This document shows positions 1,821-57,947 of a DNA stretch of 64,000 nt, one piece after another. Source of the DNA: Chromera velia (Eukaryota; Sar; Chromeraceae); contig JAHBMJ010002665.1 in the NCBI GenBank assembly GCA_018398765.1, positions 34,864 through 98,863 of the forward strand. Reading direction: 5' to 3'. Every line of letters starts with the position of its first letter. Position 1 is the stretch's first letter. Under the pieces are notes generated by a model. That model searched no databases. It was given only the letters and a program-made list of their open reading frames with translations, and was not told where the DNA came from. The position numbers and the translations under genes are program-made.

Positions 1821-3326
1821 CCGAGGGGAAGCGAAAGGAAAGTTTGGGTATCACATCTCCCAGGTTGTTGAACTGCACAAATCAAGAAATCAACAAGGCA
1901 CTACGGCTTTCGCATCGTCTTGCCTCTTCACATTTCGATGTCGATCATTTACGATCGCGACGGAGTGTGAATTGACTGCCCTGAGTTGTTCCGTATGAAA
2001 GATGTCTTCAGTTGATCCTCTTTTCTATCCAATCCAATTACCAAGAACCAACTTCTGTACCTTGCACGTACACTGCAGTTATGGTTTACACTGTATATCC
2101 AAATGGCTTCTTCGTAACAGAACATGAATTATCGAACAAATGTTCTTAATGGCTGGGCATTTCATTAGTAGTATTTGTATTAGTTCAACTCAGTAAAAAT
2201 TCTTTCTTCGACTTTCTATTTTTTTTTTTCATTACTCACGTTAACTTAAGCTTTAGTTTTAAAACCTTTTTATTATGGCACTACTTTCCATTTTTATGTA
2301 AATTAAGATTGAATTTACGATGCATCTGATACAAAAACTTAAGTATGTGTCGAAGTTATAACAGAGATTGAATGAATTTCTATAATTTTATTTTCGATTT
2401 TCTATAAAATCTTCAAATAAAATTTTCTAGAAATGATTCTGTGTCAAACAATTTATGATAAATTCGTTTCTAATTCACTAGAATGGAAAATGTCTCCAAA
2501 TATCTCCAAATTCCAGTTCTTGATTAAATACTAGTCGTGTTAATTGAATTGATCATATACGTATTATATCTGTAAGTGATAAGAACCATTAAGGTGGAGG
2601 ATCGACTAGTGGGCTTAGCTGACAGATTCACGTAGGTTGGACTCCATCAGTCAGGAGGAGTGTCAGTCTAGTACTAAGTACAATCATAAGACAGGGACAA
2701 CGATCACACTCTTTGGGTGTGAGGGTACATGTCGATCGATCTGTCGCTGCACACCAATCTAGACACCAATAAATGCGATAGGCCCGAACGCATACCATTC
2801 GGGGCCGACTGACAGGCAGTGCAGGGGCGGCGCGCTGCTTGCACGACTAGGGACGAGGCTGCCCCGCGACGCAGGCAAACCGGATGGCAGGTGTGAAAGA
2901 AGGTGGTTCACAACAGTAAGCCTACTCAGGCTTATTTCTATATATAGGAAGAAAACTGAGCCTACTAACTTGTTATCATCAACGTAATGCTACTGATGCA
3001 CTGGCAGTGAGGCAAGTCAGTTAAAATGAGTTTCACCTCAGCCTGCATGCAGCAATTTCAAAAGGTAGCAGTTTTTCCCGCAGCACTACGCCTAGCACTG
3101 CACACTAGACTGCACATCCACCTTGCCAATCCAAGGAGGTCAGACTAGAGGTCAGCTGGATCTGCCTGGATGCCAAAGTGGTGCACGGACGCAAACTTCT
3201 CCGAAGACAGCCAACATGATGCAATCAAGTGACACTCTTTCTGCTTTGCACCTTCAGAAAGACTGCAATCTCAGGGCTGCGTGACACATCCCTCTCTTTT
3301 GTACTTTCTTGACTGATCTTCATTTC
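1821..3326. other. Intergenic: 3' flank and AT-rich block
   Basis: From about 2030 to 2580 the DNA is strongly AT-rich with no credible open frame. From 2590 to 3240 composition becomes balanced, with short stop-rich frames. I see no RNA gene or recognisable element. It separates two convergent genes, so both 3' UTRs probably end here. Confidence 0.6.
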
Positions 3327-3545
3327 TCACCCTCTCTGACAGCTTTCTCTGTGTGTCGTCCAACTCTGTCTCTTCACTCCACATTGCAGTAGTACGCTTT
3401 CCTGGACCGCGTGCATCTGTTCGAAGCCCCCCTTTTGGCGCACGTCCAGCAGTATTGCTGAGAAGAGCGCGGTGGGGTTTCCTGAAGCAGCAAGACGATT
3501 TCGTAGTGGCCCCGAACGATTGCTTCTTCGATAGGTGTCCTTCCC
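3327..3545 (-). pseudogene. Terminal exon: partial ankyrin repeat plus disrupted MYND zinc finger
   Basis: The acceptor is GTGTGCTTGCAG at 3546-3557. The exon opens with a ninth, partial ankyrin unit (GRTPIEEAIVRGHYEIVLLL) and runs into a MYND-like finger. The first Cys pair (CWTC), a third Cys (RC) and KAYYCNVE are in one frame, which stops at 3374. The rest of the finger (RQSWTTHRESC, with the W-x2-H-x3-C spacing of MYND) lies in the next frame and stops at 3327. The fourth expected Cys reads Ser (CTRS). A one-base deletion plus a Cys-to-Ser change would explain this, as would a sequencing error. As written, the finger cannot fold. MYND fingers normally bind proline-rich partner proteins. 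Confidence 0.6.
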
Positions 3546-20400: not shown

Positions 20401-23400
20401 TCCCCCCGAATCAGAGGAAGGGAGGAGGCTACTAGGCTGGGGAGGGGGTACATTTCGTCACAGCGGCCCTGGCAGTCAGGATGACTCTCCCGCCGCTTCA
20501 AAGCAAAGGGGGGGGCAAGAGAGTGCGTCTGATAGCAGCTCTGAGAGTGAGGATGACTCTCTCGCCGCTTCAAAGCAAGGGGGGGGGCAATGGTTGAAGG
20601 AAAGGAGGAGGAAACGGCTTGAGGCTGACAGCAGCTCTGAGAGTGAGGATGACTCCCCCCCCGCCTCAATGAATGTGGGGGGGCGTGGAGGTACCGCTCA
20701 CCGCGCCTCTGACACGCAAAATGACTCCCCCCCCCCTTCCATGAATTCAGGTGAGCGTGGGGGCACCGCTGACCTCCCTTCTGACAGTCAGGGTGACACA
20801 CCATCGACCTTACTGCAGCAAGAGTTGAGGGATGGGGGGAGCCGTCAGCCCGGCAGTGACTGGTCCGTCCCTCCCGTGTCAAGGGAAGCGGCGCGGGAAA
20901 GGGAGGCGGCTTATTGGGGGTCTGCCGGTCGGGATGGCCTCTGGCGATCCGATTCTGTGCAAGAGGGGAAGGGGGGGCGTGCCGCCACGCCCGGCCGTGA
21001 CAGGCTTGACTCTCCCCCCGCCTCAGAACAAGGGAAAGGGCAAGAGAGTGCGTCTGATAGCAGCTCTGAGAGTGAGGATGACTCCCCCCCCGCCTCAATG
21101 AATGTGGGGGGGCGTGGAGGTACCGCTGAGTGCCCCTCTGGCAGTCAGGATGAGTCTGCATCCGCCTCAAAGCAAGAGGAGGGGGCTGGGGGGTGCCCTG
21201 AGCCCGGCCGTGACAGTGACAGACTCGACCCAAAGGTGTCTTCAAGGGCAGCGTTGGGGGAAAGGGGTGGCGCTGATAGGGGGTCTGCCGATCAGGGTGA
21301 CTCTCCGTCCGCTTCAGAGCGAGAGCGGGAGGAGGGGGGTGCCGGTGCGCCCGGCAGTGGCTTGGTTGCTTCTCCCCATGCGTCAGAGCGAGGCAGGAGG
21401 CAAAAGGGTGCCTCTGATAGCTCTGAAAGTAAGAATGACTCCGTTGTCGCTTCAGATCAAGGGTGGAGCGAAGCGGGCGCCTCTCATGGCGGCTCTGAGA
21501 GGGGAGACGTCTCCCTTCCCCCCACCCCTTTGCCTCGCTATGTCCGTGAGAGTGGTGATGAGTCTCCGTCCTCCAGTAGCTCGAGCAGCGATGCTGAGTC
21601 CGAGAACAGCAGTGAGAAGGACTCTGGGGGTGAGAAGGGAGAAGAGTTGTCCTCTAGGCCAAGGAGGAGTGAGGAGAGGTCAGAGTCGGAGAGCGGAAGC
21701 GACTCTGAGAGTTCTTCTTTTTCTCCTCCTCCTTGTTCTTTTTTTGGCTCTCCCCTTACTTCATCCAGAAGTGCGGATGCAGAAACCCGCAGTGATTTGG
21801 GGTCCCAGGTTGTTGGGGTTGGACACCGGGCTCGGGCTCTCTCTAGTTCTTTAGTCAAGAAGGAAGGGGCGGGGGGGGGATTGGGTGGCAGTGATGGTGC
21901 TGCTGGGGGGGAGGGTGAGTCTCCTTGTAGTCCGATGAACAACAGCACAGAAGAGAACGAGAGCGGGCACAGTTCCGAGAGTGCAGAGGATAGTCCGTCT
22001 GGTTCAAATGATGGGGGGCTGGCAGAGAGCGATACCAATGGGGGGGAGGGCAACGAAGAAGAGGAAGGACAGACGGAGGAGGGGGCGGGGGATGAAGAGG
22101 AGGAAGAAAATGCTGTGTCGAGCTCCACTGGGGGCAGCTCCTCAGCACATGAGTTCCTTTCCGATATCGTCTATTTGGAGTCCTCAGATGAATTGCGGCA
22201 GAGAGCGATCACTCTGATCTCTGAAGATCAGATTCACCTCCCTTCTGGGATGCGTTTCTGGGGGGTGATTGCGTTGTCTGGTGCTACTTATGAGAGCCTA
22301 TGGGTTCGCTCTGTTGCGGATGCAGCGACAGCGTGGAGAATCCATGCATTCACAGAGAGAGTGATCTCGAAAGGAGCACCGTGGGTGGTCATTGCTGCCC
22401 GACGGCAGCCGAGAAGCGTTGGGGGGGGAAGTTGGAAGCGTGATTGGTTGATTGGTGTGCAGACCCAGGATCAGGGCAATCAGCACGCTGCTCTTGATCA
22501 TCGCGTTGCGCACGACTCGAGGGGTGCTGCTGCTCATCTCGCGATGCGCATCGCAGAGAAACTCCTCGAGGTGCCAGACGATGACTCTGTGGCCGCTTTC
22601 ATCCCCCCCGCCTCTGAGGGTGTTCCCCCCGTGGCCGATGTTCCGCCGCCCACAGAGATCTTTGAGCTAGAAAACGAAGAGGGAGGAGAAGGGGGGGAGC
22701 AGGAGAGCGAGACGGCAGAGGAGGAGGAGGGGGAGGAGGGGGAGGGAGAGGAAGAGGCCCAGAGTGCCACTCCTTGCACTGTCGTGATGCTGGTAGAGCA
22801 GGCATGGGAGGGAAGCAACAGTCCCCCCTCTCTTCCTCTCAGCCCTCCTGAAGGGACGGGAGAGAGTGAGGGGGGCGGAAAGGGGGTGGTCGCATCTGCA
22901 GCTGCAGCTGCAGCAGCGTCGGTGTCCGCAACCGGCCTCTGGTGCCCAGGGCAGAGTACCAACGTCCTCTATTCCCCCTCCCTTCTGGGCTCCCCCGCTA
23001 TGAGTGACAACAATGCACTCCGTGACCTTGCGACGGAGACGAGCATTCCCACCCTGTCTGCTGAGGACATGGATATGGCTGCACTGCACATCGACATTGA
23101 AGAAGAGTTCTCCCCAAAGAGCGAGGAGGTTCTGTTCATTTGTGGCAATGCCATCACAGCGAAGGCAGTCACAGAGGCTGGGTTTCCTCCCATCGGTTGG
23201 AGATTTGGCAGTCAACGTATTCGGACAGTAAGGGCATTCCTCCGGTTGCAGATGGCGTTGCAGAGGGCGAACGCTGACGTTCTTGGCATCCGTCTGCTGG
23301 GGGCCGACAGAGGGGGGGACAACGCGCGCACCGAGGTGACTCTGTATGTGGTCTTCCCCGACACGGGCACAGACAAGAAATTCACGGGAGAGGTGGACCT

Positions 23401-26400
23401 CGACCACAGGGGTTCGGGAGAAGTCAAGACACTCACCCATCTCTGCACCAGTATATACGTTTGGCTGAAAGAGCGGGAAGGAAAAGAAAAGGGGGAGAAC
23501 GGAGAGGGGTCAGATTCGGACGCAGGGCAGGAGGAAGAGAAACATGATGGAAGCCCCCTAGAGTCCCATCTGCGTCATGCGCAACCCTCCGCCGCCGCCG
23601 CCGCAGCAGTAGCAGCAGGAGGAGGAGGCGCGAATGCACGATCCCCGCATGTGCATCCATTCGCAGCAACCGTAGCTGCAGCCGCAGGGGCAACCGCAGA
23701 GTCGGCATTTCAGCCTGCTTCTAGGTCCCCTAACGCCGGATGCGTGCAGAGGGAAGGGCCTGACGAGAATGCTTTGGAGAGAGTTTTGGGAGGGGGTGAG
23801 AAGAGAACGAAGCAGGCTCCCTCAGCCTCGGTCGACAAAAAAGAGAAAAAGAAGGAGAATGCTTCTGCCGAAAGAGCAAAGAAAGAGAGGGAGATCTCTT
23901 CCGCATCAGTCGACAAAGGAGAGAAAAAGAAGGAGAGTACTTCTGCCGAGAAAACAAAGAAAGAGAAGGAGATCTCTTCCGCATCAGTCGACAAAGGGGA
24001 GAAAGAGAAGGAGAGTGCTTCTGCCGAAAGAGCAAAGAAAGAGAAGGAGATCTCTTCCGCATCGGCCGACAAAGGAGAGAAAAAGAAGGAGACTGCTTCT
24101 GCCGAGAAAGCAAAGAAAGAGACGGACATCTCTTCCGCATCGGCCGACAAAGGAGAGAAAAAGAAGGAGACTGCTTCTGCCGAGAAAGCAAAGAAAGAGA
24201 AAGAGATCCCCTCAGCTCTAGCTGATAGAGGAGAGAGAAAGGAGGACGATGGATCTGCTGACAAAGAGAAAAAGAAGAAAGAGGAGATGAAAGATAAAGA
24301 GCGAAGGACCTCGTCGGACAGTGAGGAGGAGCAGCGAGAGAGGTTGCTCCAGGCTTGCGTCTCTGCTGCCTCGTTTGTCTCTCAGGGCCAGGCGAGGAGG
24401 AGTCCCGGAGGCAGAGGGGGGGTTGGTAGGGAGAGGGAGAGGGGCAGAGCCGTTCTGGCGCCTTACGAGCAAAGCCAAAGCAGCGGGAGGAAGAGTTCAG
24501 AGAGGGCCTCCTCCTCTTCCGTTTCTCAGCAGAAGAGCCGGCAGAGTGCCGATAGGGGTGTGAGAGGAGGAAGGGGTTTTGTCCAGGAGAGCAGTGGCAG
24601 TAGTGCTCGGGGACACCCCTTACGCCTCCCGAGACCCTCTTCCTCGAGTCATCGGAGGGAGACGGAAAGGACAAGAGGAAGGAGAGAGGAGGAGGAAGAA
24701 GAGGAAGAGGCATCCAGTCGGACGAAAGACGTCGCAAAATCATCTTCATCAGGTTATTCCCGAAAGATGGAGGTGAGGGAGAGCAGGAGAGTGAGTGACG
24801 GCAGTGGCAGTGATGATGAGTGCTACTTCTCACCCAACGGTCGGGTCTCCCCCCGTTCCGAATCGGGGGATGAGAAAGACGAGGGGGTAGGGGAGGAAGA
24901 GAAGGACTATGACAGCGCCATCGATTCCCCCCCTGCCGACACGACCCCTAGCGGTTGCAGCGGTGCGAGTGACTTCAAGTCCTTCCCGCCCTCTCCCGAG
25001 AGACTTACCCGTCTCCCCCTTGAATTTGTCTGGGGTGTCCCCCGAAAGCTTCTGATGGCTCAGAAGGACGAGTTTGAGTGGGGAGAGCCCGGGGAAGATG
25101 ATGATGAAGAGGGGGAGTGCGTTTTGTTTGTGCATGGGAGGGAAGAGAGAGGAGAAGAGGGTGCCTCGGATGATGGGTCCAGGCCCCCGATCTGGCATGC
25201 TCGTTTGTCCATGGAGGAAGACGAGGAGATGGAGGGGATTTGCAGAGAGCTGGCAGATATGCGACTCCGGACCGTCGTTTTCCTCTCTGCAGCGAACATT
25301 GCACAAGCATGGGCATGGACTGAACCGACAGGTGAGCTGGGAAAGGGGAAGGGGCAGGGGAGGGAGTTGAAGACATTGAGACAAGTCTGATGAGGGTAAG
25401 GGGGTCTCCTGTGCCTGAAGCAGGAGATAGCTGATGAAATCATCCCCTTCCTCATTGTGTCTTTCGTTTCTTTCGAAAGAAGGATATTTGGCGCTCTCTG
25501 TCACTTGGTGCCTGTGTGACGTGAAATGGAGAGATCTCCTGCTGCTTGTTGTTCTTTTTCCGTGTGTTTTGTTTGAGTGAAGGAGAGAGCGAGAGAGGAG
25601 ACAACGTACGTTGTGAATCAACCCGTCTGTGTGTGCAAAAATGCTTGTATTTACACATACTTCAGCACATTCCTCTTCTCTTTGATTCTTTCTTGCAGTC
25701 GCGCAGCCGGAGCGGTTCATTGAGAAGCTGGTGAAAGACTCGAACCCTTCCACGGCCGTCCGGAAGGCCCTGAAGAATGTCCTGGAGGTTCTCAGGAAGG
25801 GTGTGCAAGAAGGGGAAGGGGAAGGGAAGTCAACGGATCGGGGAGGAGAGTCCGACAAGTCACCCGAGATCGGGGGCACGGGGGCAGATCTGTCGGATGA
25901 CGGCGCCAAGTCCTCCGCCTCGTCCACCTCCTCCTCCCGGCCTTTGCACCCCTTCCCCGAGTCTGGCCCTGGGAGTCCCTATATTCCGACCTGGAGAATT
26001 GAGCAGATGAAAAAGGAAAGGAGGGAACGAAGAGCAAAGAAACGCCCTGCGTCTGCCTCTGCTTCGTCTAGGTCCCTGAGAAGGGACATGACGGAGATGA
26101 GTAGTTGGAGCAGTGTGCAGACACGGCAGCGGCCCGCCTCTTCCAGTGGGGGGCGCAGGCAGAATCCGATTGCTGGGCCTCCAAGGGATCTGAGGGAGTG
26201 CTGGCACATCGATTATGTACGCGAGTACAAGGTGAACTTCCACTTCAGTGAGGAGAAATTGGTTGCCACTGTGGGCAGAGAGAAGCTCCGGAGCTTCATG
26301 CCTCCCGACTACACGTTGTTCGGGTTCGTCACCAAAGCAGACGACGATTACTGGGTTGGGGCCTTCAGTCCAGCCAGAAGAATGCTGGTGAGATAGGTTG

Positions 26401-34655: not shown

Positions 34656-35912
34656 TCAGTCCTCATCTGAGAAATCATCATCACTGAAATCTCCAAGCTG
34701 ATCAAACACCTCAGTGTCCACATCATCTCTCTCCATCTCCTCAAGCCATTCTCTGTGCTGCACAAACACTGTCTCAACTCCACGGTACCAAAAGCAGCCT
34801 TCTGGAGACTGGTTTCCATACAGCTCTGTGGAGTAGACTTGTGCCATATAAATTGCCCCTCGCAGATGACGGGGTTCAATGTGGTCCGCTTCGTCTCCGT
34901 TCTGACGAAAGAGACTGTTGATCACTTCCCAAAGCACGTCTACCCCAAACATCTTCAAGTGTCGGCTCAACGTCTCATCACGCTTCATCTTGTTCTTCAT
35001 CATGCCGAACACCATCTCGATCGGGTTCCACTCCGGACAATGCGGTGGAAGCAGAATAAAAAGAGCACCGATGTCTTCCAATTCCTCTTGGAGCCACCTT
35101 CTCAGAGCACGGTGGGGCCCTGCGTTATCCCAAATGAAAACAGAACGGGGCTGAGGATCATGGGGATCAAACGCATTCATCACTGGGAGCACATCCGCCT
35201 GAAGAAAGTCCTTTAAGAGGTCGGCGTTCACTGTTGTGGATGTGATGTGATGTTGAAGAAGCTCCTGGTCGGTCATTGCTGCAAGCACCATCAAGCCTTG
35301 CTTCGCATCCACAAATCTTTCTTTTGACAGACATCTTGCCCCCTTCAGCGACCATCCGAAGCGGCTCACTCCCTCAGAAACTCTGAATGGAACTTCATCA
35401 AACCAGACAAAGCAGGAAGGGTGAATTCCTCGAACGTTTGCAACGAATGCATCCATTTCTTCCTTCCGTTTCTCCAACGCCATCACCTTCAGCTGCTTTC
35501 GAGTGAAGCCCAGCCGCTTGAAAGCATTCAACAACGTCTGGTCTGTCATCTGCACCCCCAACATCTGCTGCAAGGTGGCGTTGTATCTCGACAAGGTCCA
35601 CCACGGGTTGTCTTCAACGAGTTCACGCACAACATCCAGCTGTGCACCCTGAAGAACTCTGGGTGCCGGTCCCCTCTTCAGCCGGTCCGGAGACCCTGTA
35701 TCCTTCCACCTCTTCACCCAGTTCTCGATGTTCCGCACACCCAGGCACAAAAACACAGCAATCGTCTGGATGGAGGTGCCGTCAATCCACTTTGCAACGG
35801 CGAGACGGCGGATCTCATTCGAAGAATGAATGCCCGCCTCCACACCAAATTGCTCAAGCCGGAGCACCAAAACGAGCAGGAACGCCCAGAACAGAACAGA
35901 TCTCACAGTCAT
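34656..35912 (-). CDS. DDE transposase, IS630/Tc1/mariner superfamily, DD36E type
   Basis: The ATG at 35910-35912 gives 418 residues; the frame is open further upstream but has no ATG there. The first 25 residues are oddly hydrophobic (MTVRSVLFWAFLLVLVLRLE). Residues 27-140 form a helix-turn-helix DNA-binding region (EIRRLAVAKWIDGTSIQTIA, then NIENWVKRWKDTG and a GPAPR linker). The catalytic triad is visible: first Asp in CFVWFDEVPF, second in FIWDNAGPHRA, and Glu in CPEWNPIE, with 36 residues between the second and third. These residues bind the metal ions for cut-and-paste transposition. The C-terminus is acidic. No stop or frameshift interrupts it. The long inverted repeats around it are its presumed substrate. 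Confidence 0.88.
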   Translation of the reverse strand: MTVRSVLFWAFLLVLVLRLEQFGVEAGIHSSNEIRRLAVAKWIDGTSIQTIAVFLCLGVRNIENWVKRWKDTGSPDRLKRGPAPRVLQGAQLDVVRELVEDNPWWTLSRYNATLQQMLGVQMTDQTLLNAFKRLGFTRKQLKVMALEKRKEEMDAFVANVRGIHPSCFVWFDEVPFRVSEGVSRFGWSLKGARCLSKERFVDAKQGLMVLAAMTDQELLQHHITSTTVNADLLKDFLQADVLPVMNAFDPHDPQPRSVFIWDNAGPHRALRRWLQEELEDIGALFILLPPHCPEWNPIEMVFGMMKNKMKRDETLSRHLKMFGVDVLWEVINSLFRQNGDEADHIEPRHLRGAIYMAQVYSTELYGNQSPEGCFWYRGVETVFVQHREWLEEMERDDVDTEVFDQLGDFSDDDFSDED

Positions 35913-36222
35913 CGTGACTCCTATCCAAAAAAACACAGTGCAGAATGATCGATACTGAGAGAAGAAACGAGAAGGATCACCTGAAGAGACAGACTGAAGA
36001 GACAAGTTGAGGAGACGGGCGCTGACAAGCCCGAAAGAAAATGCGGAGAAGCTCCTGTCAATTCTCACACCCAAAGAGTCAGTGCGTACACGGAAGATGT
36101 TCCTATGCACGTAATCATGAAGCTTGTCTGTGCAGCAGAACTGCCCATAAACTTCAAAACAACACAACTCAAGGATGAACCGAAGTGCACTCACGGACCA
36201 ACTTTTGTAATCGAGCACTCAG

Positions 36223-39517: not shown

Positions 39518-40231
39518 CTACACAGTGGCAGTTAACACCTCTGACGACTTTTTGACGCTCTTGTTAAATTGTTTTTGATCTTTCCTGACGTCTGCTACAA
39601 TCTCCTTCAGGGGGCCCTGGAAAGCAACAGAGAAGAAAAGAGGAATGAGGAATGAAACGCTACTTCGCGCCAAAGCTACACTACAGGAAACAGTGGAATT
39701 GGGAATGCCGTGCATCGATCAAAGATCAGGACAATTTGTAGCAAAGAAATGCGACGATTTCAAAGAGGCAGCATTGAATCAACAATGATGTCGAATAAAT
39801 AGACATCGCACATGGACACTCAGACAGCGAATGACCCTTGACAAAAGAATTAACAGCGAAGCAAATGCAAAGAAGCAGGATCACGTAGAAAGATAGAAAT
39901 AAAAAGATCTGGACCATGTATCTCTTGAACTCCTCGCTCGTATAAGGAAGCCGCAATACTACAACTTGCTATTTTTTTCTATCACATACACAGGCAAACC
40001 ACTGACGTGAAAGCTTTCGTCGCTCTGCAGAGGGCAGAGGACCAGAGGGCACAGGAGAGAGAGGTGCGCAAAGAGCAAAATGCGCAATCAGTGTCTTCGT
40101 CCAGATGAGGTTGTCTCCCGCGGGCAATCCGTAGCTTCATTGACTTCGAGAGACTTACAGTGCACATGGAATGAACATACACGTGTACCGTGCAGGTCAC
40201 CTTGTGGACTCCTTGATGATCTCTCCATGAA

Positions 40232-40281
<50 letters not shown>

Positions 40282-40291
40282 ATGTGTGCGT

Positions 40292-40323
<32 letters not shown>

Positions 40324-40347
40324 GGTCTGTGTCTGTGTGAAAGAAAG

Positions 40348-40393
<46 letters not shown>

Positions 40394-43300
40394 ATCGCTG
40401 AGTAGTTGTTGGGCGTTTCCAAACAAAACGCAACAAACAAAATACGAGAGAGACTACTGATACAACCACCCAAGAAGTCCAAACTATCTCAGCAGGCTCA
40501 GTCTTCATGTTCTTCATACATGAATATGGTATATTCGAGGAGTTGGGATGCAGGACTGTTGACCTACCGGAGTATCAAAGAAGACATTCTTGATCGAATC
40601 CTGCATTCAAGAGAGAGGAGAGAGAAGAAAGTCTGTCCACATGAGTAGCTTGTGAAACAATTGAACGAAAACGGACATGCATGCATTTTGAGTGCGGCTG
40701 GTCCGAGTCCTGTCTCTACACGCCCTGCCCTCATGGACTGAGGCCTGTAAAGATACATGCATGGATGTGTTCATGCCTCCGAAACACAAATCAAGAGCTC
40801 CGCAGATTGTAATGTCAATCGGCATTTCGAAGAGGGAGAGAAGATCGTCAGTCAATGAAGGAAGAAAACAAAAGAGGGAGAGAAGATCGTCAGTCAATGA
40901 AGGAAGAAAGCAAAAGCACATACATGCGTCAGCAGAGCCCCCAGAAGCGAGGAAGGAAAAAAAGAGACGGCATGTTTCGAGCAAATCACCGAAGGATGAG
41001 AGAAACACATTCATTGATCCTCCAGATCCTTTTCTCGCTTCTGTCCTTCCTTATCTCCTTCTTCCCCAACAAATGAAATGAAGGCCACTTTCTCCTTTTC
41101 CAGCTCATCTCTCTCCTTCCCTCTTGACTAAAAAAGAGACGACAAAAGAACCCACCATAACTTTTGTCAGCTGCAGAAAGTCCACAAACAAGAACAGAGG
41201 CACAAACAATCGACAGATCCGATCGCTACCCAGTAATGCAAACCACGGCATTCCAAATTGAAACCCGGAAGACCGCAAATGAGAGTCAAGAAAAGACGGA
41301 GAGAAGGAATGCAGATGGGCGGGCAGGTATGTAGGCGGGGACGATTATTGCAAAGAAACATTGCGACATGCAGGAAGCGGAGTACACGCACAAGGCATAC
41401 AATGAACACACTACGGAAGCTGGCAGGAACAGAAGAAATGAGATATCAAGTCCATTCAGGCCCGGGACGCCTCGATGAAACCATAAATCAGCATTCAGAG
41501 AGAAGCCTCGGTCGCCTCCCTGAATTTCAATCTACCTCGACGAAAGGAAGTAAAGGGAATCAATCGTCCCAGACCAATGTAGACTGACCGCCTCCTGCTG
41601 CGCCTCCTGCAACCCCAAATGCAGACAGACACACAAACACATCGACAGAGAGAGAAGTTGAGGCATGCAGGGAATGTGTGTCAAGTGGACTCCTTGAAAC
41701 CGAGTCGAGCACCTCTTCCGTTCATTCACCTAAGTAAACATCCATCCAAAGCTGGTAAAGGACCCTCAGGAAAACGAGACTTGATGGAGCTCACAGAGAA
41801 AGGCGCACAGACAGACAGACAGACAGACAGAAAAATTGGAATTTGACGTCTGATCCTTCTCACAAGCCCCTCCACCGACCGCGACGTTGACGAGCTGCAA
41901 GGAGAGAAAAGCAGGTCGAGGTGGAGAGTTTGCAAAATCCAAAACAAGGGGATCGAGAAGCAGAAGTGATCATCACATCTGCAAGACGAACCTTGGAGGT
42001 TGACATCAAATCACGGCCAGAGCTGATCGACATGCAAATGGACTTTGGGCACAGACGCTCAGATGATTCGTTCCAGGGAAGTCCATCGATGCAAGGGCAA
42101 TTAATTGCTCTATTCAACGCTTTCGGGGGATCGCTGTTTGATCCCTTCCGGCTGCTCTCCATGTACATTCATTCACTGGATTAGCCAGAGGGCATGAGAG
42201 AGGGTCTGCAGATCCAGAGAAAGCAAACAAGCGGAAAATACAAAAGACGGCTTAATTCTGAGAGAACTTGCAGGAGAGGGTCTTTTTCCTTCCTTCCTCA
42301 CCTTCGCCCTTGCTCTCTCCCGTGCAAGAAGTTCAGGATCGGCCGCGTTCTTCTGCACTCAGTCAGACAGTAAAAGAAGAGCGCAAAGAAAAGAAGAAAA
42401 TACAGAATATACATATCCACCATAGGGTAGGGGAACCACGAAAGGAAGAAAAAGGCCGCCATCTTTCACAGCAAAGTCAGAGAAAGAAAGCAAACGGCGA
42501 AAAGAGGAAGAGAACCACAATATAGACGAGAGAACACAGCCCTCCGTCATTCTCCCGGCTGACCTGGATGTCGTGCATGATCTCTGCGTCGTCTTTGAGG
42601 AGCTGCATTGAGTTCCCGCAGGAGGGGAAAGGAAAACATAATTGGATCGGCCGGCGTCTTGCTTTGAAAAAGAAAAGAAAAGAAATGCAGACTCTACCTC
42701 AGCATCGAGTTTCTGCCATGAAGGCAATCTCTCCATCCATCATCTGTCGCTGTCTGTCTGTCTATTTTCTCTCAGAGCTGCACACCCTTCGAGGCCTCTC
42801 CTCCATTGCAAGGCGTCCTCCCTTTTTCTGTGAAGAGTGGAGCAACAAACCTAAATCAGCAGAACGGCACATCCATGCAAACGGATTTGTAGAGACCATT
42901 AGGGCGGACGAAAACACAGACAAGCAAGAATGCTTCTCTGGACGTACCTCCAAAAGATCGCCCTGTAGAGTGGCAGCCAGAGGAGGATTGGGAACAGACA
43001 GACGGACACACATCGACAAATAGATGATTCATTGTTTTTCAGTTTAAGGGGCCATCAACTTTTTCAAGCGCATTGCTCAATCGACTTCCTTTCTGAATTC
43101 ATCTTTTGCGCGACCTCTTTATCACTGACTACATGTCCGTCAACCCTGCATGTGTTTTTCTTTTGTTCACCTTCCAAGTACCTCATCCGACGCAACAGAC
43201 TGCCATTCTTTTGTAGACCCCGAAACAGACAAACTTGGAAGCAGACTGTAAGAGGCGAGCTGAAAAAAGAAAGGGCACATAACTTTGATAATCCAAGCAA

Positions 43301-46300
43301 GAAAAGAAGACATCTGGAATTTATCCTTCAAACAAAAATGGAAAAGAGAAAGTGCAGATAACAGCTTGCTTCCCTTTCCTTTCCTTCTCTTCCCTTTCTC
43401 TGATTCTTCGAAACCGATGCTGAGTCTTCAAGGGAAGGTTTTCGGGAAGGGAAGGGAAGAGAAGGCATAGAAACCCCGAATAAAGGAAAGGGACAGCACC
43501 GACAGACTTCAATCCTCCCTTCTTGCTGCAGGAAAACAAAAGAAGAAACACAAGAGAGGAGAAAATAAATGAGCGCAGGGAGCAAATTGCAAGAGCATGT
43601 CGAGATCAGGCGAGACGCCACAGAATGATCTATCAGACACTGCGTTGAGATAGCCACAAAGAAAAAATTACGACAGAAATCCGATTGTCTGAAGCAAAAA
43701 CTGCCCACGGTCTGATGTTTGTTTTCTGCTGCATCTCACGAACGTGAACGAAAAAACAGGAGAGACGGCCTGCGTCTTCTCTTTCAAAAGAAAGCTAAAC
43801 ACTGATTCCTATCCACATTCAGGACAAGAAAGACAGAGCTGTGCAATACTTCGGCATTGAAATCGAAAATTGACGAAAAAGAAGACAAAGAAAGAAAAAG
43901 GGCGGACGCACCAGTCGTCGAAGCCCCTTCTGCAGTTCAATGGAGGACACAAAAAGAGGAGAAAGAAGTCATTGTGAAAATCAAAGAAGAAAAAACTGGG
44001 CAATGAAGAGGTTGAAATTACGGAAATGCGGCACGCTGCGTGAAGTCAATTAATTTTCTTGTGGCGACTACAAACGATTGTTTGTTGCATATCGAAGGGT
44101 AAGTAAATCCTGGGTGTGGCCAAAACACTTCGATGCATCAAACTGAAGATTCTGCGTAGAGTGATGGATTGCAAAAAAAAACGACGGGAAAACGGGTGTC
44201 GTCACACGAGTGAGAATAGAAAGACACAAGAAGCGAAGCGTCAGATGGACAGTCGGACCTCGGAACTCAACAGGAGCGAGACGGTTTTCTGCACACATGC
44301 AACCAGACAAAGAGGCAGACAGGCAGACAGACAGGGCAAGGATACCGCTCAGCAAAGGGCCATGTATCGCATCAAGAACTTGACAGATTTGGCTGTCAAT
44401 GCATCACACGCTCACACAATCCAGCTGGTTGCAGGCAGATGGAGATGGACATGAACGTGCCTGTACTGCATTATCAAACAGAAAACTGGCAACCGAGAAA
44501 AAGAAGGAAAGAAGAACAGGACACGCAGAGAAAGAGATTCACAGGCCGACACTTCATGCAGACAGCGATTAAGACCATCTGACGGACGGACCCGAATGAT
44601 TTTGTGCGTGTCTGCAAGCTGCCGTGCTCTCTGCAGACATGCAAAAGTGATCGAAGGATACTTTTACAAGCTTGCTGTCAGGGTAGAAATCAACGCACGG
44701 GTAGTCCTCTCCGCGTTCCCCCAAGCGACTTCTTCTGCTCTGTCCAGCATCGTTGTCCTCCTCCTATACATTCAGGCGTACAGGCGTTTTCTTTCCAGCT
44801 TTGGGGAGGGAAGGCCTTGCAACAAGTGTGCTCTTTCCCCCTCTCCTACATGTCCAGGCACCAAGAAGATCGGAAAGATTCGAAGAAATCTTCCAGCACC
44901 ATGCATCACAGTACTAAAAGAACTGCTGACCAGTTGTTGGCGATTCAGCTGCAGCGAGATCACACGCACACACACACACACACACACCTATGCATACAAG
45001 CACACATGCATTACACACCCAGAATACACATACACATACCCACATCATGTGTTCTTCGTGGAGAAGAAGATCTCTGCACGAGACCAGACCAGCAGACAGA
45101 CTGAAGGCGGCAGAGATTCAAGGACCGCATGGGAGCATGCGGAGCTTGTGTGTGGATCTTTCTTTATGTGGCAATGAGAAAAGTTCGCCTTTTCTCTGTT
45201 CATCAAGCACACTTCCTGCCTCAGAGACAGACCTGCGCGATCTTCTGGTCTTCAGCCTGCAAAAGAGACGGAAGGAGAATGAAGCGGAAGAAGTCGTCAG
45301 ACCAAGCAAAAGTGGAAATTAAACTCAGAGTGAATGTACCGAAACCTGTCTGCTCACGAACCCAACTCGTTTTCGCAATTATTTGTCCCCAAAACATTAA
45401 TTGCAAAGGGCAGTTTTGAAGCAATCACAAGAGGCTCCAGGTAATGTCCTTATGACTTATGGACAAACAACAAAGCCTGTATGAAGACGGAAAAGAAGGG
45501 AATACGCAAGAGTACCTTCGAAGTCTACCACGCCCTTTGCTCATCACTGATTTGCTTCAAACCCTGCTCCCCGCTTCCCTTTCCGCCTCGCCAATTCCCC
45601 TCAAGCCCCCTTCACTTCGCTTATTCTCTGACAGTAGGAAGTGACTGACGGCATTGGATAGTAGCTGCAGCGACAAATTAAGAGGAAAGAAAAGAATACT
45701 GATACTCATACTCCGACTTCAGCTACTGCGACAGGTAGGCAGGAAGGCAGAAAGGCAGGTGGACGGACAGATGGACAGGTGGCAAGACAGACAAACTCCA
45801 CCCGATTTCATTCATTTGCTCTCCTTCACCAAGCAAAGGGCACAAATGGGCACAAACCCAAATGCGCAAAGGACGTGCAATACAGTCGGCAAGACAACCA
45901 GGCAGATTTTTGAATTCCGTGATCAGTCAAGAGTCAATCAAGTCTCTCTGTGACATTCGGAGTTGAGGAGACAAACTGATCACATGCGCAGCAACAATTT
46001 CTTGCCTTCTGCCACGTTTTTGAATCTCCAAAAGTTCTCATGTCCCTTACTTCTGTTCATCTTCTGTTCTGTGTCCCTGTCACCTAACTAGAACCCAGAC
46101 TACAGAACAGACCCCACGCCCGACTTCCAGTGTAACAAAAGACCCGAAGACCTAAACTCCTCCCACCATACGAACTGACCACAGCGCTCTGGAGGGAGCC
46201 AAAAGAAGAGGAGGCAGGGAAAAGGGCAATGAAAATTGTGTTTCTCCTTGTAGGTGCACACTAAATAGACATAAAGAGAGACCTGAAAGAGAGGGCAACC

Positions 46301-49085
46301 AAGCCAAGAGATCGATCCAATCTTTCCTTTCCTGCCCCCACCTGCTGTGTATGGTCAAATCACAAAATCACCTCATGCAGCTCACGGCTGTCCCTTTCAT
46401 TCCAATTTCTGAAATCATACCAGGCTATGCAGAATCATGAGGGCAGGTTAGACAGACCTGAACCGCCTGCGAGAAAGATGCAACAGGGAAGAAGAGGGAA
46501 AGGAATTGAAAGTCACCGAAAGCGAGAGAAAGAACCCAGACAGTGGGAAAGACCGAGGGCCGAGTGGGTGGATGATACTTTCTGATCAATGCACGTACAT
46601 GCAGACTTGCAAAAGCTTCCGAAACTTTCTGACTGCGTCCCGCTCGGGCTTCAGAAAGACGGCAGAAGGTCAACAGAAAGCGTCTCAAATGACGGGCATA
46701 TCGAGCTCTGTGAAAGGCAGGCGAAGAAGGCAAAGAAGAACCACGGCGCCTACAGCATGCACATCCAGAGAACTGAACAGAACAATTAAACGATTGGAAG
46801 GGAATTCAGGAGAAAGATAGATGAGAGAGAGCTGACCAATCTCAGTTGGAAATCCTGCGTGGTTTCGTCCCGTGTTTTTGTCGACGGATGAGTGAGTCGG
46901 TTCAGAACAGAGAGAAAGGGAGTGAGAGATCCATCGAGGTCGGTCAAGCTCAGTCTTGCAGAGGAACAGATGCGACTCAATCCGGGCAGAATCGGAGGCA
47001 GAGCCAGAGGTCAACCTGTGACGTCCATGCGATTTCAACGAGTCGGCCGAGTTGAGAAGCAGAAAGAAGAACAGTCAGTCAGTCAAAGCTGTGCCCAAAC
47101 AAAGAGCGGGATAAATCGGGAAGGAGCGAGAGCGAAACTCAAAGTGGAAGAACAACTTCTTCGGCCCGGCAAGGTTAAAGCCAGTCATCCAAAGAAGACA
47201 CAACCCCAGAAGGATTTGCTGACCGACGGAGTACCGTGCTGCAGCACCGCAAAAGAGTGAGGAGAGAGAGAGAGAGAGAGAGAGAGGAAGGTCGAAAGAG
47301 AGGGTGAGAGGCTCAAACATAGTTCTTCAAGGGGCACGATCCTCTGCAACAGAGGACAAAAAAAGGACAAAGAACAAAATTGGAACAGGTTGCCTGTCTC
47401 CTCCCTGCATCCCTCCCTCCTTGCCTCCCTGCCTTCCTCCCTCCCTGGCTCACTCAGTCACTCACTCACTGATTCGCTGCCTTGATTCTGATCAGTTGAG
47501 TCTCTCCACTTTTCTTCTCCCCCACCTTCCTCCCCGTCCCTTCTCTCATTTGCGGAATTAAAAAATCAAACCCCCTCTCTCCACCATCCACTGACCGATA
47601 AGTCCTGATTGATCGGTCGAAGGAGGGAGAGAGGGTCCGGAGTTGCAAGCAAAGAGACGTGGAAGCATGAAGGGTGAAGCGAAGGAGCCAACAAAGGCAG
47701 ATGACGGGAGAGGAAACAATCTTGCCAACTAGAACATGTCTCTCTGTCCAAGTTCGAATGGGCTCATCTAACGTGCGTTTGTGTGACTAGCGACAGAGGC
47801 AATGAGTGGGCAGGGAGAACGAAGAGGGGTCTGTCTGGATGATCGAAAACAGGGACAGGGAGAGAAATCCATACCTCAAGGAAAGCGACTGAGAAAAAGA
47901 CAAAGAACGTCAAGGGGGGTGAGTCTAGTTTCCAGAGGGAGAAGCGGAATTAGAAGCACGCTAAAAAGAAAGAAATGTGCGAGACAAAATCTCCTGCGGT
48001 ACTGTCTCAATGACACCTCACTGCACCGCTCCGAGTCTCTCTTCTGGTTCCCCAAAGAGTGGACCGACCTTCACCCGCTGCAGAAGCAAACGAGAGATAC
48101 ACACAGAGGGATGGAAGAGTGCATTTATGTACTTTCGAGAATTCGAGGACTTTCAAGAGCTGCGATTGAGTTTTTTGTGTTTTCTGCCACCTGTCCGATT
48201 CTGTCTGTAGCAAAAAGCTAGAACGTCTACACAGCTTCCGAGAGAAAGCCAAACAGACAGACTGACTGACCGTGAGTGCCTGCACGTCGCGGAGAGATCC
48301 CAGCAGAGAGACAGACGGGAGCGGAGAGAAGATGAGAATTGCAGGAAAGTGCAATAAAGGGAAAAACGATTTTAGAAAATGAAGCTGGCACAACGTGGAA
48401 ACAGCACAAGAAGGGGGAAGTGGAAGGAGTACCCTGAGAAGGCTCAAAGTTCTTTGTTCTTCAAGAGCCGGATGCCGGCATTTCAACACCCACATTTATG
48501 GTCTAAGCCAGACGAAAGACCATCAGATTGCTTTGGTAAAAAAAAGCAATGGGAAAGGTCGGGGGGGGNNGGGGGGGGGGGGATCTCATAGACGGATGGA
48601 TGGGTGCAGTCAGCAGAGACAGTTTGTGTAAAACGGCAGGGATGAAAGAGAAAAAAGGGGGCATCACGAAGAGACAGGGCAAGCAGCCATGTGCTGACGT
48701 GTCGGACTGCCTGCAGGTCAGAAAGGACATGCACAGAAGTGGAGAAAGAATGAGCATGCAAAAGAGAGACAAACACGCTGGCAGTTCCAGAACGGATGAA
48801 TAGTCAAACGAGAGAAACACTGTGGGCGAAAGGGATGTTTTCAGGACTGGACATGCATGAATGAACCAGCCCTTGCGTGTCTGCATGCATGCCTGTGCGC
48901 ACCTTCATCAACCTTTCCGAGTCTTTTTTTGTCGCCGGTTTCATCTGGACGAAGGCCGCCTCTGTGTGATGACTCTCCTCTGGTCTGTCCCCTCCTTGAA
49001 GAAGCCTCCCTTGAGTGGGCCCAGCCAGACAGCAGAGGATGAGGAGAAGAAGAAAAAGGCCCAGAGCCGCCACCCGGCTTCTCAT
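39518..49085 (-). CDS. Micro-exon gene: signal peptide plus about 26 tiny in-frame exons, secreted or membrane-targeted protein
   Basis: Exon 1 (48903-49085, ATG at 49083-49085) encodes 61 residues opening with a signal peptide: MRSR, then a long Leu-rich core (LGLFLLLLILCCLAG). Small exons, 5' to 3': 48699-48710, 48271-48279, 48069-48077, 47224-47238, 46837-46854, 46458-46466, 45650-45664, 45233-45256, 44931-44948, 44592-44630, 44259-44288, 43912-43929, 43622-43639, 43508-43525, 43182-43199, 42948-42962, 42698-42712, 42564-42602, 42302-42352, 41880-41894, 41589-41606, 41156-41170, 41071-41127, 40568-40600, 40007-40024, 39915-39968. The last exon is 39518-39616 (VRKDQKQFNKSVKKSSEV, TAG stop). 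Every exon is a multiple of three and phase 0, giving about 293 residues. Most acceptors are TGCAG; many donors are GTCAGY. The later part is charged and coiled-coil-like (LLKDDAEIMHDIQ, then KNAADPELLARERARAK). No family is recognised. Individual tiny exons are uncertain; the overall pattern is strong. Confidence 0.6.
40242..40390 (+). repeat. TG- and GA-type microsatellites
   Basis: A CT run, a TG run with TATG interruptions and a GA run follow one another inside a large intron of the micro-exon gene. Confidence 0.9.
48569..48570. other. Assembly gap (2 N) inside a G run
   Basis: Two N lie between runs of G, in the intron between the second and third exons of the micro-exon gene. Confidence 0.9.
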
Positions 49086-55300: not shown

Positions 55301-56507
55301 GGCAGGCAGGCGCTGGGAGAGGGAGAGAGATACTCGAAAGAAAGAGTGACACACGTGCCTGTGGGGTGGAAGGAAGAGAAAATGGATCCTGTGGTCTTTC
55401 TGATTTTTTCTCTTCTCTCTCTGCCTTTTGTTGGTTGCAGGGGCTCTCTCTCTCTCTCTCTCTCTGCGTGGTTATTGGATTCTTTCTTTGTGCTCATTCA
55501 TCGTCCTAGGGTGTTTTCTTTTTGTCTTTCTTTGTGTGTTTGCAGAAGGCGCCCACTCCCACAGTCAGCGACATCCCTCTAAGCATGAGCGCTATGGGGG
55601 GCATGGGGGGGATGCAGATGGGAGGCATGGGGGGGATGGGCATGGGAGGACAGAGACCGCCAATGAGACCGGGTGCAGGGCTGTCGCCTGGGTCGAACCC
55701 CATGATGCAGATGCAGGGATCTCCCATGGGGCATGGGGGGGCAATGGGCATGGGGGGAGGCATGGGAGTAAATCCTATGGTCAGTCATTGATGTTGCCCC
55801 GTTTCTTAGCGGTTTCACTTCCTTTCCCTATCTTCATCAACCTCTTGCATCGTGTTCTTGGTTCTTGGTCTTCGGCCTTTCCTCGCTTTCCTCCTTTGCT
55901 ATTCTCGTCATTCGCTGTCTTCTTGTTCTTCCTCGGAATCGGGCCATCAGTGCAGTGCATGGAGCAACCAATGGCTCCTCTCCCTCTCGGCACGCTGCTT
56001 TTGCGGTTTTGTCCGTTTGCATGCCGTGTGTGAGAGAACGAGCAACACATGATTCCTTTTGCTCTCTTCTTCCCTACATGCTTGCAACGAATGGCTCACG
56101 CCTTCTTCGCCTCGTAACACGACGCACTGGATCTCCCTCCCTCCCTCTCTGCCTGCCTCTGTGGCCTTCTTTCTCTGGCCCGGTTGGTTCAACGACGGCA
56201 ACAACAGATGCAGCAACAACCTTCGGCAGTGGGGGGAATGGGGGGGATGGGTGCAATGGGCGGCATGGGGGGTATGGGAGGCATGCGGGGGGGGATGGGG
56301 GCGTCTCCGGCGGGGATGGGGGGAATGGGCATGGGGGGTATGGGAGGGATGGGGGGAATGGGAGGAGGGGGCAACCCCTTTGCCCAGCAACAACAGCAAC
56401 AGCAGACCCCGATGGGAGGAATGGGGGGCATGAACAGCAATCCCATGGGAGGAGGAGGAGGGGGATTTGGAGCGCAGGGAGGAGGCAGCCCGAATTGGCA
56501 GTTTTGA
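49968..56507 (+). CDS. Epsin-like clathrin adaptor with ENTH domain, 15 exons
   Basis: Exons: 49968-50023, 50119-50229, 50330-50411, 50668-50803, 51163-51217, 51756-51785, 52066-52161, 52469-52591, 53042-53071, 53349-53453, 53920-54038, 54430-54885, 55201-55289, 55546-55779 and 56208-56507. Lengths sum to 2,022 nt, giving 673 residues, and every junction phase agrees. Residues 1-150 form an ENTH domain: EKNLSEATQNTNWGCPTSVL, MEIARQTYD, KWRRIYKGLTMLEFLCKNGS, then SRESLHRIRML and IREKSKYICELINDSEMLK. ENTH binds PtdIns(4,5)P2 and bends membranes. A charged linker follows, then a clathrin box (LLDLD), DGWNAF, DLFGVDPF (a DPF motif for AP-2), LFDLS, and a long Gly/Met-rich tail (GGMGG repeats) with a Gln run, ending NWQF. 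No ubiquitin-interacting motif is obvious. The last acceptor (CAACAACAG) is weak, so that boundary is the least certain. Confidence 0.9.
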
Positions 56508-57947
56508 CTTGACTCCATTGTCCTTGCATCTATATCTTGCATGGGGGTAATGACCTCCATGAGTTCCCTCTCTTGTTAGACATACTTCTGTCTTTGGGTT
56601 CAGTACTGCGTGGTCATTTCTTTGTTCGACCGACAGGGGACGAGCGGGTCTTTCTGTTTTGTTTTGTTTTGTGTTGCGAATCGCTCTGTCTGTCTCACTT
56701 TGATGCTCNGTTATTGGATTCTTTCTTTGTGCTCATTCATCGTCCTAGGGTGTTTTCTTTTTGTCTTTCTTTGTGTGTTTGCAGAAGGCGCCCACTCCCA
56801 CAGTCAGCGACATCCCTCTAAGCATGAGCGCTATGGGGGGCATGGGGGGGATGCAGATGGGAGGCATGGGGGGGATGGGCATGGGAGGACAGAGACCGCC
56901 AATGAGACCGGGTGCAGGGCTGTCGCCTGGGTCGAACCCCATGATGCAGATGCAGGGATCTCCCATGGGGCATGGGGGGGCAATGGGCATGGGGGGAGGC
57001 ATGGGAGTAAATCCTATGGTCAGTCATTGATGTTGCCCCGTTTCTTAGCGGTTTCACTTCCTTTCCCTATCTTCATCAACCTCTTGCATCGTGTTCTTGG
57101 TTCTTGGTCTTCGGCCTTTCCTCGCTTTCCTCCTTTGCTATTCTCGTCATTCGCTGTCTTCTTGTTCTTCCTCGGAATCGGGCCATCAGTGCAGTGCATG
57201 GAGCAACCAATGGCTCCTCTCCCTCTCGGCACGCTGCTTTTGCGGTTTTGTCCGTTTGCATGCCGTGTGTGAGAGAACGAGCAACACATGATTCCTTTTG
57301 CTCTCTTCTTCCCTACATGCTTGCAACGAATGGCTCACGCCTTCTTCGCCTCGTAACACGACGCACTGGATCTCCCTCCCTCCCTCTCTGCCTGCCTCTG
57401 TGGCCTTCTTTCTCTGGCCCGGTTGGTTCAACGACGGCAACAACAGATGCAGCAACAACCTTCGGCAGTGGGGGGAATGGGGGGGATGGGTGCAATGGGC
57501 GGCATGGGGGGTATGGGAGGCATGCGGGGGGGGATGGGGGCGTCTCCGGCGGGGATGGGGGGAATGGGCATGGGGGGTATGGGAGGGATGGGGGGAATGG
57601 GAGGAGGGGGCAACCCCTTTGCCCAGCAACAACAGCAACAGCAGACCCCGATGGGAGGAATGGGGGGCATGAACAGCAATCCCATGGGAGGAGGAGGAGG
57701 GGGATTTGGAGCGCAGGGAGGAGGCAGCCCGAATTGGCAGTTTTGACTTGACTCCATTGTCCTTGCATCTATATCTTGCATGGGGGTAATGACCTCCATG
57801 AGTTCCCTCTCTTGTTAGACATACTTCTGTCTTTGGGTTCAGTACTGCGTGGTCATTTCTTTGTTCGACCGACAGGGGACGAGCGGGTCTTTCTGTTTTG
57901 TTTTGTTTTGTGTTGCGAATCGCTCTGTCTGTCTCACTTTGATGCTC
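55471..57947 (+). repeat. 1,238-bp direct duplication around a single N, probable assembly artefact
   Basis: 55471-56708 and 56710-57947 appear identical at a constant offset of 1,239, including introns. The first copy ends exactly at the N and the second starts right after it. That is what two contigs with overlapping, unmerged ends look like. Confidence 0.9.
56785..57746 (+). pseudogene. Second copy of the last two epsin exons
   Basis: 56785-57018 and 57447-57746 repeat epsin exons 14 and 15 exactly. They have no ENTH-coding exons of their own and lie in the duplicated segment, so they are most likely the same exons counted twice. If the duplication is real, this would be a non-functional 3' fragment. 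Confidence 0.75.

Follow-up and report, generated by a model that had tools for sequence, protein, structure and literature searches.

The window, the whole 64,000-nucleotide stretch of the Chromera velia contig that was analysed, carries a gene on its minus strand between positions 49085 and 39518, made up of a 61-codon first exon, 22 internal exons and a 99-nt last exon (Table 1). The internal exons are 9–51 nt long, all of them divisible by three in length and in phase 0, and together they make up 444 nt, the middle 61%, of the 723 coding nucleotides. The 23 introns are all of the GT-AG type and in phase 0, with lengths of 193–623 nt (mean 384).

Table 1. Exons of the micro-exon gene and a candidate cassette exon, in positions of the window.
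Feature	Residues	Length (nt)	Positions	Strand	Support
Exon 1	61 codons	183	48903..49085	-	ORF; only last two codons (MK) in P0001
Micro-exon 1	ALT	9	48271..48279	-	P0001
Micro-exon 2	RVK	9	48069..48077	-	P0001
Micro-exon 3	DLS	9	47596..47604	-	P0001; weakest splice score, 7.3
Micro-exon 4	HGTPS	15	47224..47238	-	P0001
Micro-exon 5	DFQLRL	18	46837..46854	-	P0001
Micro-exon 6	AVQ	9	46458..46466	-	P0001
Micro-exon 7	SAV	9	46180..46188	-	P0001
Micro-exon 8	LLSNA	15	45650..45664	-	P0001
Micro-exon 9	AEDQKIAQ	24	45233..45256	-	P0001
Micro-exon 10	LNRQQL	18	44931..44948	-	P0001
Micro-exon 11	RARQLADTHKIIR	39	44592..44630	-	P0001
Micro-exon 12	KTVSLLLSSE	30	44259..44288	-	P0001
Micro-exon 13	KGLRRL	18	43912..43929	-	P0001
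Micro-exon 14	QEGRIE	18	43508..43525	-	P0001
Micro-exon 15	GDLLE	15	42948..42962	-	P0001
Micro-exon 16	LLKDDAEIMHDIQ	39	42564..42602	-	P0001
Micro-exon 17	KNAADPELLARERARAK	51	42302..42352	-	P0001
Micro-exon 18	LVNVA	15	41880..41894	-	P0001
Micro-exon 19	EAQQEA	18	41589..41606	-	P0001
Micro-exon 20	LTKVM	15	41156..41170	-	P0001
Micro-exon 21	DSIKNVFFDTP	33	40568..40600	-	P0001
Micro-exon 22	SDESFH	18	40007..40024	-	P0001
Last exon	GPLKEIVADVRKDQKQFNKSVKKSSEVLTATV + stop TAG	99	39518..39616	-	P0001
Candidate cassette exon, phase 0	AVRH	12	48699..48710	-	splice score only; absent from P0001

The exons were drawn by hand. Two of 29 candidates (47888-47875 and 47343-47319), whose lengths are not multiples of three, were dropped before the searches, and the other 27 gave a 285-aa query model. 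Among 6528 candidates, the only match with an E-value of up to 10 was P0001 (E 1.4e-92), a transcript-derived sequence that belongs to MMETSP Transcript_34037 and was compared as protein. It consists of MK, the end of exon 1, followed by the 22 internal exons and the last exon, and all of its 182 residues, from MK to the stop, are identical to the spliced exons (182/182). Moreover, ATGAAG|GT occurs a single time on the minus strand between 63900 and 48271, namely at the end of exon 1. The identity of P0001 and this unique site thus support the 22 internal exons and the 23 phase-0 GT-AG introns. This confirms the micro-exon gene and shows its exon order, junctions, phase and expression. The first-pass annotation had proposed about 26 symmetric exons of 9–57 nt; its in-frame run of micro-exons is present, but P0001 supports 22 of them, of 9–51 nt. 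That the small exons are all multiples of three in phase 0, with a normal last exon behind them, is borne out by P0001 for 22/22 internal exons. Three exons modelled by hand (48710-48699, 43259-43182 and 42827-42786) are absent from P0001 and were rejected for the known mRNA. The nine exons said to combine a GCAG acceptor with a GTCAGY donor are, counted by eye, reduced to eight in P0001, the ninth being the unconfirmed 48710-48699.

In a training-free count, acceptors with a pyrimidine tract were paired with the nearest GTNNGY donor and sorted by length modulo three (0/1/2). The gene yields 30/5/9 pairs, and 30 of the 30 in-frame ones are open. The same count gives 5/3/3 for the antisense strand of the gene, and 27/42/30 and 43/38/43 for window positions 1-39000. 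Both strands of 20 sampled 10-kb loci, which are fixed positions on long contigs and not a strict random sample, give 332/389/348 (gene versus loci, p = 4.6e-7). The in-frame excess of the gene goes beyond chance. Another pair count gave 0 pairs for locus L012. In leave-one-out scoring, 20 of the 22 confirmed exons reach a splice score of 14 (median of the confirmed exons 17.5), a score also reached by five other sense pairs, when those sharing a confirmed site are set aside, and by five antisense pairs. The top non-confirmed acceptor-donor pair in the gene is 48710-48699 with 16.8, and one antisense decoy scores 19.0. A gene finder with splice matrices from the micro-exon gene itself recovered 22/22 confirmed internal exons and drew 12 further exons in the region (34 in total), so the exon set is not fixed by the sequence alone. 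For comparison, we used L014, a gene of ordinary appearance in this genome; 12 of its 27 predicted exons were left out, and the other 15 were those that could be assigned by eye to branching enzyme or starch synthase. Their median length is 109 nt, and the micro-exon gene differs from them both in phase-0 starts (23/23 versus 7/15, Fisher p 1.3e-4) and in symmetric exons (22/22 versus 4/15, Fisher p 1.6e-6).

The composition of the micro-exons is coding-like, with 19% T versus 33% in the introns and a GC content of 0.64/0.35/0.635 at codon positions 1/2/3. An origin of the introns as introners (transposed introns) was considered and rejected; all-against-all blastn of the 23 introns gave 13 matches with E-values of up to 0.01, none of them longer than 45 nt. 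TGCATG is found 16 times in the introns versus 7.3 expected, in a count that leaves out L012 and across differing composition. The full protein has 241 aa, and cleavage after residue 26 would leave 215 aa with a pI of 9.05. It is small and basic, and probably mostly helical, as suggested by an all-helical structure model of low confidence (mean pLDDT 56.7). Neither a Pfam family nor a PDB sequence relative of the protein was found. In a search of its own genome that scored only the best 11 candidates, the best two matches outside the gene were weak (E 0.09 and 0.6). The gene is expressed, nuclear and apparently single-copy.

A second locus, at about 12.7–31.4 kb of contig C104, is predicted to carry Cys-rich exons and, downstream of them, an array of micro-exons mostly in phase 0. 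A 416-aa composite of its predicted exons had no match with an E-value of up to 10 among 3330 transcript candidates, and the locus therefore stays a prediction; no Pfam family above the cut-off was found for the Cys-rich stretch. Small exons on contig C346 are weak candidates. Genome-wide, GCAGN12GTCAG has 3047 matches versus 1670 for the reversed control, TTCTGCAGN{9,27}GTCAGT has 157 versus 48, and TTTTGCAGN{9,24}GTCAGT has 57 versus 41. For 86 places among the listed matches of TTCTGCAGN{9,27}GTCAGT, kept after 14 repeats or overlaps were dropped by eye, length modulo three is 34/23/29, with no clear genome-wide bias.

Micro-exons of plants are, as a rule, few per gene. They are 15 nt or shorter, use ordinary splicing with strong signals in the flanking introns, and form 16, 21 and 8 clusters in phase 0, 1 and 2, respectively (PMC8831610); unlike these mixed phases, the gene described here has 22 in a row, all in phase 0. 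Aphid bicycle genes have about 17 exons on average, many of them unusually small, with nearly all internal exons starting in one phase, and encode putative gall effectors of diverged sequence (PMC9168663). Many tiny internal exons in uniform phase are thus common to both. However, bicycle internal exons start in phase 2, i.e. at codon position 2 (PMC9168663), whereas 22/22 are in phase 0 here, and the bicycle genes are an insect gene family to which no sequence relation was found. Schistosome MEGs encode a signal peptide and have the bulk of their coding region in small exons, mainly multiples of three (PMC10526429, PMC4350168); they are stated to appear restricted to platyhelminths (PMC4350168). 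The Chromera velia gene resembles them in a coding region of mostly small symmetrical exons, which supports a MEG-like architecture of the schistosome type, and would also resemble them in its start if the signal-peptide-like part of exon 1 belongs to the mRNA. It differs in that the host is an alga and not a fluke, that one transcribed gene and one predicted locus stand against 35 genes in Schistosoma, and that no alternative isoforms were seen. Common descent with the Schistosoma MEG family is not supported: no homologue among 6528 candidates and no Pfam family was found, the organism carries light-harvesting proteins, and the MEGs are compared by architecture. Schistosome VAL-6, a conventional gene in one part of which very small symmetrical exons follow each other (PMC4350168), resembles the predicted C104 locus in its partial micro-exon run; however, it encodes a fluke VAL protein, whereas the Cys-rich stretch of C104 has no Pfam match above the cut-off. 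None of the papers listed in a literature search reported a micro-exon gene for apicomplexans, protists or Chromera.

With all internal exons in phase 0 and of lengths divisible by three, skipping of an exon or a block of exons would remove few residues and keep the frame. P0001 is the sole transcript-derived protein found; the mRNA behind it joins all 22 micro-exons, and constitutive splicing would be the main mode. Tiny exons may easily be missed by the spliceosome, and if only frame-neutral ones are tolerated, the uniform phase would be kept; deliberate production of variants would be an extra use of it. We assign a probability of roughly three in four to this explanation as a whole, an expressed chromerid gene with 22 phase-0 micro-exons, a probably secreted product and frame-neutral tolerance.

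A functional analogue of the schistosome MEGs, in which combinatorial skipping would create a pool of secreted variants directed, for example, toward coral hosts, bacteria or grazers, is possible but doubtful. It would fit the layout, since small symmetrical exons and a signal peptide are also found in MEGs (PMC10526429, PMC4350168), and the second predicted locus with its largely phase-0 array. It would also fit the extra in-frame exon 48710-48699, which scores like the confirmed exons, is absent from P0001 and, judged by its splice sites, is a fair candidate for a cassette exon. However, P0001 contains every internal micro-exon, no gene family emerged among the best 11 candidates of the genome search, and the organism is photosynthetic, its genome encoding light-harvesting proteins. 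Moreover, no second isoform was found beside P0001 in the full-model search and the 5' fragment search of transcript proteins. Isoforms may have escaped notice, since the database of these proteins is clustered at 90% identity and a single search spans limited protein lengths. Exon skipping that yields many secreted variants, as envisaged in the first-pass annotation, is not supported so far.

Exon 1 starts with an ATG, 9 nt downstream of an in-frame stop, and encodes the hydrophobic stretch MRSRVAALGLFLLLLILCCLAGPTQG, which resembles a signal peptide (maximum 15-residue Kyte-Doolittle mean 3.09), and then a short charged linker. Such a start suggests that the full protein probably enters the secretory pathway. 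Of the "textbook signal peptide" exon reported earlier, the hydrophobic start behind an in-frame stop stands, but P0001 holds only MK: it begins at the second-last codon, and transcript cover of exon 1 is restricted to the last six bases. P0001 is labelled a "complete" ORF though its first residue is a Met inside exon 1, and the transcript may therefore be truncated or have another start. The gene could be a real micro-exon gene whose main product is a 182-aa cytosolic form from MK, the signal-peptide exon being used by a minor transcript or as one start among several. The annotation of a complete ORF that opens with the second-last codon of exon 1, a Met, is consistent with this, as is the empty 5' fragment search, in which a 100-aa query had 15 candidates, none with an E-value of up to 10. 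We nevertheless regard it as quite unlikely, since exon 1 has an open frame from its ATG onward, encodes a strongly hydrophobic start and has as its terminal donor the one that yields MK, and since 5' truncation is common in assembled transcripts. A chance choice of splice-site look-alikes that fit the frame has next to no probability: the first-pass annotation searched partly for in-frame lengths and 3 of the 27 hand-modelled exons are missing from P0001, but the exact match to this independent transcript-derived protein already refutes it, unless P0001 stems from a gene prediction instead of a transcript, and the training-free test (p about 5e-7) argues against it as well.

Chromera is a coral-associated alga, a photosynthetic relative of apicomplexan parasites such as the malaria parasites. 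Its micro-exon gene is extreme: 23 introns, every one in phase 0, interrupt 723 coding bases, and 22 exons in succession are no longer than 51 nt. The comparable micro-exon genes known to us encode effectors that flukes and aphids secrete, and the presence of this one in a unicellular photosynthetic alga suggests that micro-exon architecture can arise without host-parasite conflict. In a culturable organism, it becomes testable how the spliceosome recognizes long runs of tiny exons, and whether the exons share one phase because errors in splicing are then tolerated or because variants are made from them. Genes of this kind may be overlooked or garbled by standard annotation. It is conceivable, if improbable, that a class of micro-exon genes encoding secreted proteins, comprising at least the gene in the window and the C104 locus, arose independently in chromerids and is diversified there by phase-0 skipping. 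If true, this would be a MEG-like variation system outside animals that predates parasitism.

The model of the window gene was drawn by reading the minus strand, where 29 candidate exons were found, and two whose lengths were not multiples of three were dropped, giving a query of 27 exons and 285 amino acids. When some 5.8 billion predicted proteins were searched with this model, the 6528 candidates yielded a single match at E values up to 10 (E 1.4e-92). This protein, P0001, has 182 amino acids, bears the transcript-format name 'Transcript_34037 ... ORF ... type:complete' and comes from MMETSP, a marine eukaryote transcriptome project. All of its 182 residues are accounted for by the dipeptide MK, then 22 internal exons, which follow one another as in the genome, and finally the last exon as far as its stop codon. 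MK corresponds to the final two codons of exon 1; this requires the donor ATGAAG/GT, and the one instance of it from 63900 to 48271 on the minus strand closes exon 1. The 23 introns are all GT...AG and in phase 0, with lengths of 193-623 nt (mean 384). The internal exons, 444 nt in total, measure 9 (five exons), 15 (five), 18 (six), 24, 30, 33, 39 (two) and 51 nt. The first-pass annotation claimed a gene with a signal-peptide first exon and a normal last exon, and its start, first donor and stop are correct to the base. The estimate of some 26 symmetric exons, with lengths of 9-57 nt, was close in number, but P0001 contains 22 internal exons, of 9-51 nt. Three model exons are missing from P0001 (see table).

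Exon 1 begins with MRSRVAALGLFLLLLILCCLAGPTQG, has a 15-residue hydropathy maximum of 3.09 and is preceded by an in-frame stop 9 bases upstream of its ATG. The product would probably be routed to the ER, and the putative mature protein, assuming cleavage after residue 26, has 215 residues and a pI of 9.05. It matches no Pfam family and has no sequence relative in the PDB. The AlphaFold model of P0001, computed without an alignment, is nearly all helix and poor (mean pLDDT 56.7, pTM 0.26). A search of the organism's own genome gave two matches beyond the window gene, both weak (E 0.09 and 0.6).

Most likely, 23 ordinary introns are spliced out and all 22 micro-exons are joined. With phase 0 throughout, skipping of any exon would be frame-neutral; tolerance of skipping errors would be the simplest reason for this uniformity. 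It is also possible that the uniform phase is used to generate protein variants by micro-exon skipping. The candidate cassette exon AVRH, in-frame and unconfirmed, speaks for such a use, as its splice score of 16.8 is typical of confirmed exons; against it, the sole known transcript product contains every confirmed exon. The protein database was clustered at 90% identity and the search covered 0.55-1.75 times the query length, and therefore further isoforms could be hidden.

Could such an array arise by chance? In a training-free test, each pyrimidine-tract YAG was paired with the GTNNGY donor closest to it within 6-60 nt on its downstream side. Pair lengths modulo 3 are distributed 30/5/9 in the window gene, the in-frame pairs being open in 30 of 30 cases, and 5/3/3 on its antisense strand. 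The corresponding counts are 27/42/30 and 43/38/43 in window 1-39000, and 332/389/348 on both strands of 20 sampled loci of 10 kb, which were fixed positions on long contigs and not a strictly random sample (binomial p 4.6e-7 for the window gene). Splice matrices were trained on the confirmed sites and exons scored leave-one-out, which gave 7.3-21.0 for the 22 confirmed exons (median 17.5). A score of at least 14 was reached by 20 of the 22, compared to five other sense pairs, counted after excluding those sharing a confirmed site, and five antisense pairs. The in-frame chain of pairs scores up to 326, a value inflated because the matrices were trained on this gene; chains in the other segments of the window and in the sampled loci reach at most 29.9 (open, in-frame) or 45.3 (any length class). 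A gene finder using splice matrices from this gene recovered all 22 confirmed internal exons, but drew 34 exons in all.

The assembly searched (177.8 Mb, 4040 contigs), most likely that of Chromera velia, contains 58 matches to the chlorophyll a/b-binding protein family (PF00504) and, on three contigs, 14 to the CPW_WPC domain (PF09717), which had none in 14 control genomes and is, to our knowledge, confined to apicomplexans and chromerids. For comparison we used one of the sampled loci, L014, where 15 of 27 exons drawn by the same gene finder were recognised by eye as branching enzyme or starch-synthase-like parts; PDB sequence comparison covered part of the branching enzyme alone. Of these, 7/15 start in phase 0 and 4/15 are symmetric, with a median length of 109 nt. 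The window gene differs in phase (Fisher p 1.3e-4) and symmetry (p 1.6e-6), rough values from one gene with ab initio boundaries. Thus, at least one gene of ordinary appearance in this assembly has many introns and mixed phases.

Schistosome MEGs have a signal peptide and small exons whose lengths are mostly divisible by three; alternative splicing has been reported for them, and they are described as apparently restricted to platyhelminths (PMC10526429, PMC4350168). The window gene shares with them the small multiple-of-three exons, and its exon 1 has a signal-peptide-like start. Aphid bicycle genes have many small internal exons, nearly all starting at codon position 2 (PMC9168663), whereas the introns of the window gene are all in phase 0. 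The protein search (6528 candidates, E up to 10) gave no sequence relatives among MEGs or bicycle genes, and none of the literature matches listed described a micro-exon gene for an apicomplexan, a protist or Chromera.

The window also contains two ORFs and a tandem repeat (see table), the latter being either a recent duplication or an assembly artefact. TGCATG, an RBFOX-type motif, occurs 16 times in the window-gene introns (48902-39617, minus strand), with 7.3 expected from the sampled loci, uncorrected for composition.

Locations of the window gene, its model exons missing from P0001, and other features
Feature	Location	Remark
Micro-exon gene	window 49085-39518 (-)	
Model exon AVRH	window 48710-48699 (-)	missing from P0001
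Model exon LASY..	window 43259-43182 (-)	missing from P0001
Model exon KKGG..	window 42827-42786 (-)	missing from P0001
Repetitive ORF	window 15707-25387 (+)	3227 codons uninterrupted, without Pfam match
Transposase-like ORF	window 34659-36218 (-)	DDE_3 domain, E 2e-19
Tandem copies, ~1.2 kb	window ~55404-56509 and 56580-57748	near-identical, same translated ORFs; N at 56709
Predicted second locus	C104 ~12.7-31.4 kb (L040, L029, L028)	
Predicted phase-0 micro-exon array	C104 ~22.7-30.8 kb	prediction, exons partly hand-picked
Stretch with micro-exon AEFLL, ~350 nt	L028 ~2628-2978 and 2979-3330	two copies, beside N run
Several small 3n exons	L030 (C346:1-10000)	not started in phase 0 by the gene finder; ab initio prediction, weak

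A whole-genome pattern search picked out a predicted second locus on contig C104, in which a largely phase-0 micro-exon array would lie downstream of Cys-rich exons. The array peptides include TYDAESP, SALDTHFS, DPSTMIY, KEV, ERNFN, EMMKR, VTRKEM, SQ, ASLK, HVR, TLL, EQE and MRHHTEELEQ, and the array is predicted to be followed, near 31.0 kb, by a last exon that is long. Its in-frame chain of 11 exons, of which a duplicated exon beside an N run and a repetitive 69-nt stretch are doubtful members, scores 108; the 20 loci reach at most 28.2 in-frame and 42.1 in any class. The training-free count for 22-31 kb is 25/9/8, with 22 of 25 open (p 1.3e-4), in a region chosen for two such hits. The phase-free gene finder begins 20 of 24 exons in phase 0 between 22.4 and 30.8 kb and gives mixed phases farther upstream; one array intron is, by eye, apparently in phase 1. 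Upstream of the array, besides the Cys-rich exons, lies a signal-peptide-like ATG at 12.7 kb, one of six on that strand. The doubled AEFLL stretch probably stems from the assembly, or possibly from a genuine duplication of the micro-exon. A transcript search with a composite of the predicted exons found none. Genome-wide, the similar sites listed are distributed 34/23/29 by length modulo 3, symmetric lengths being not clearly favoured. Together with the evidence from C104, this suggests that the genome probably holds further micro-exon arrays, but that they are not typical of its genes.
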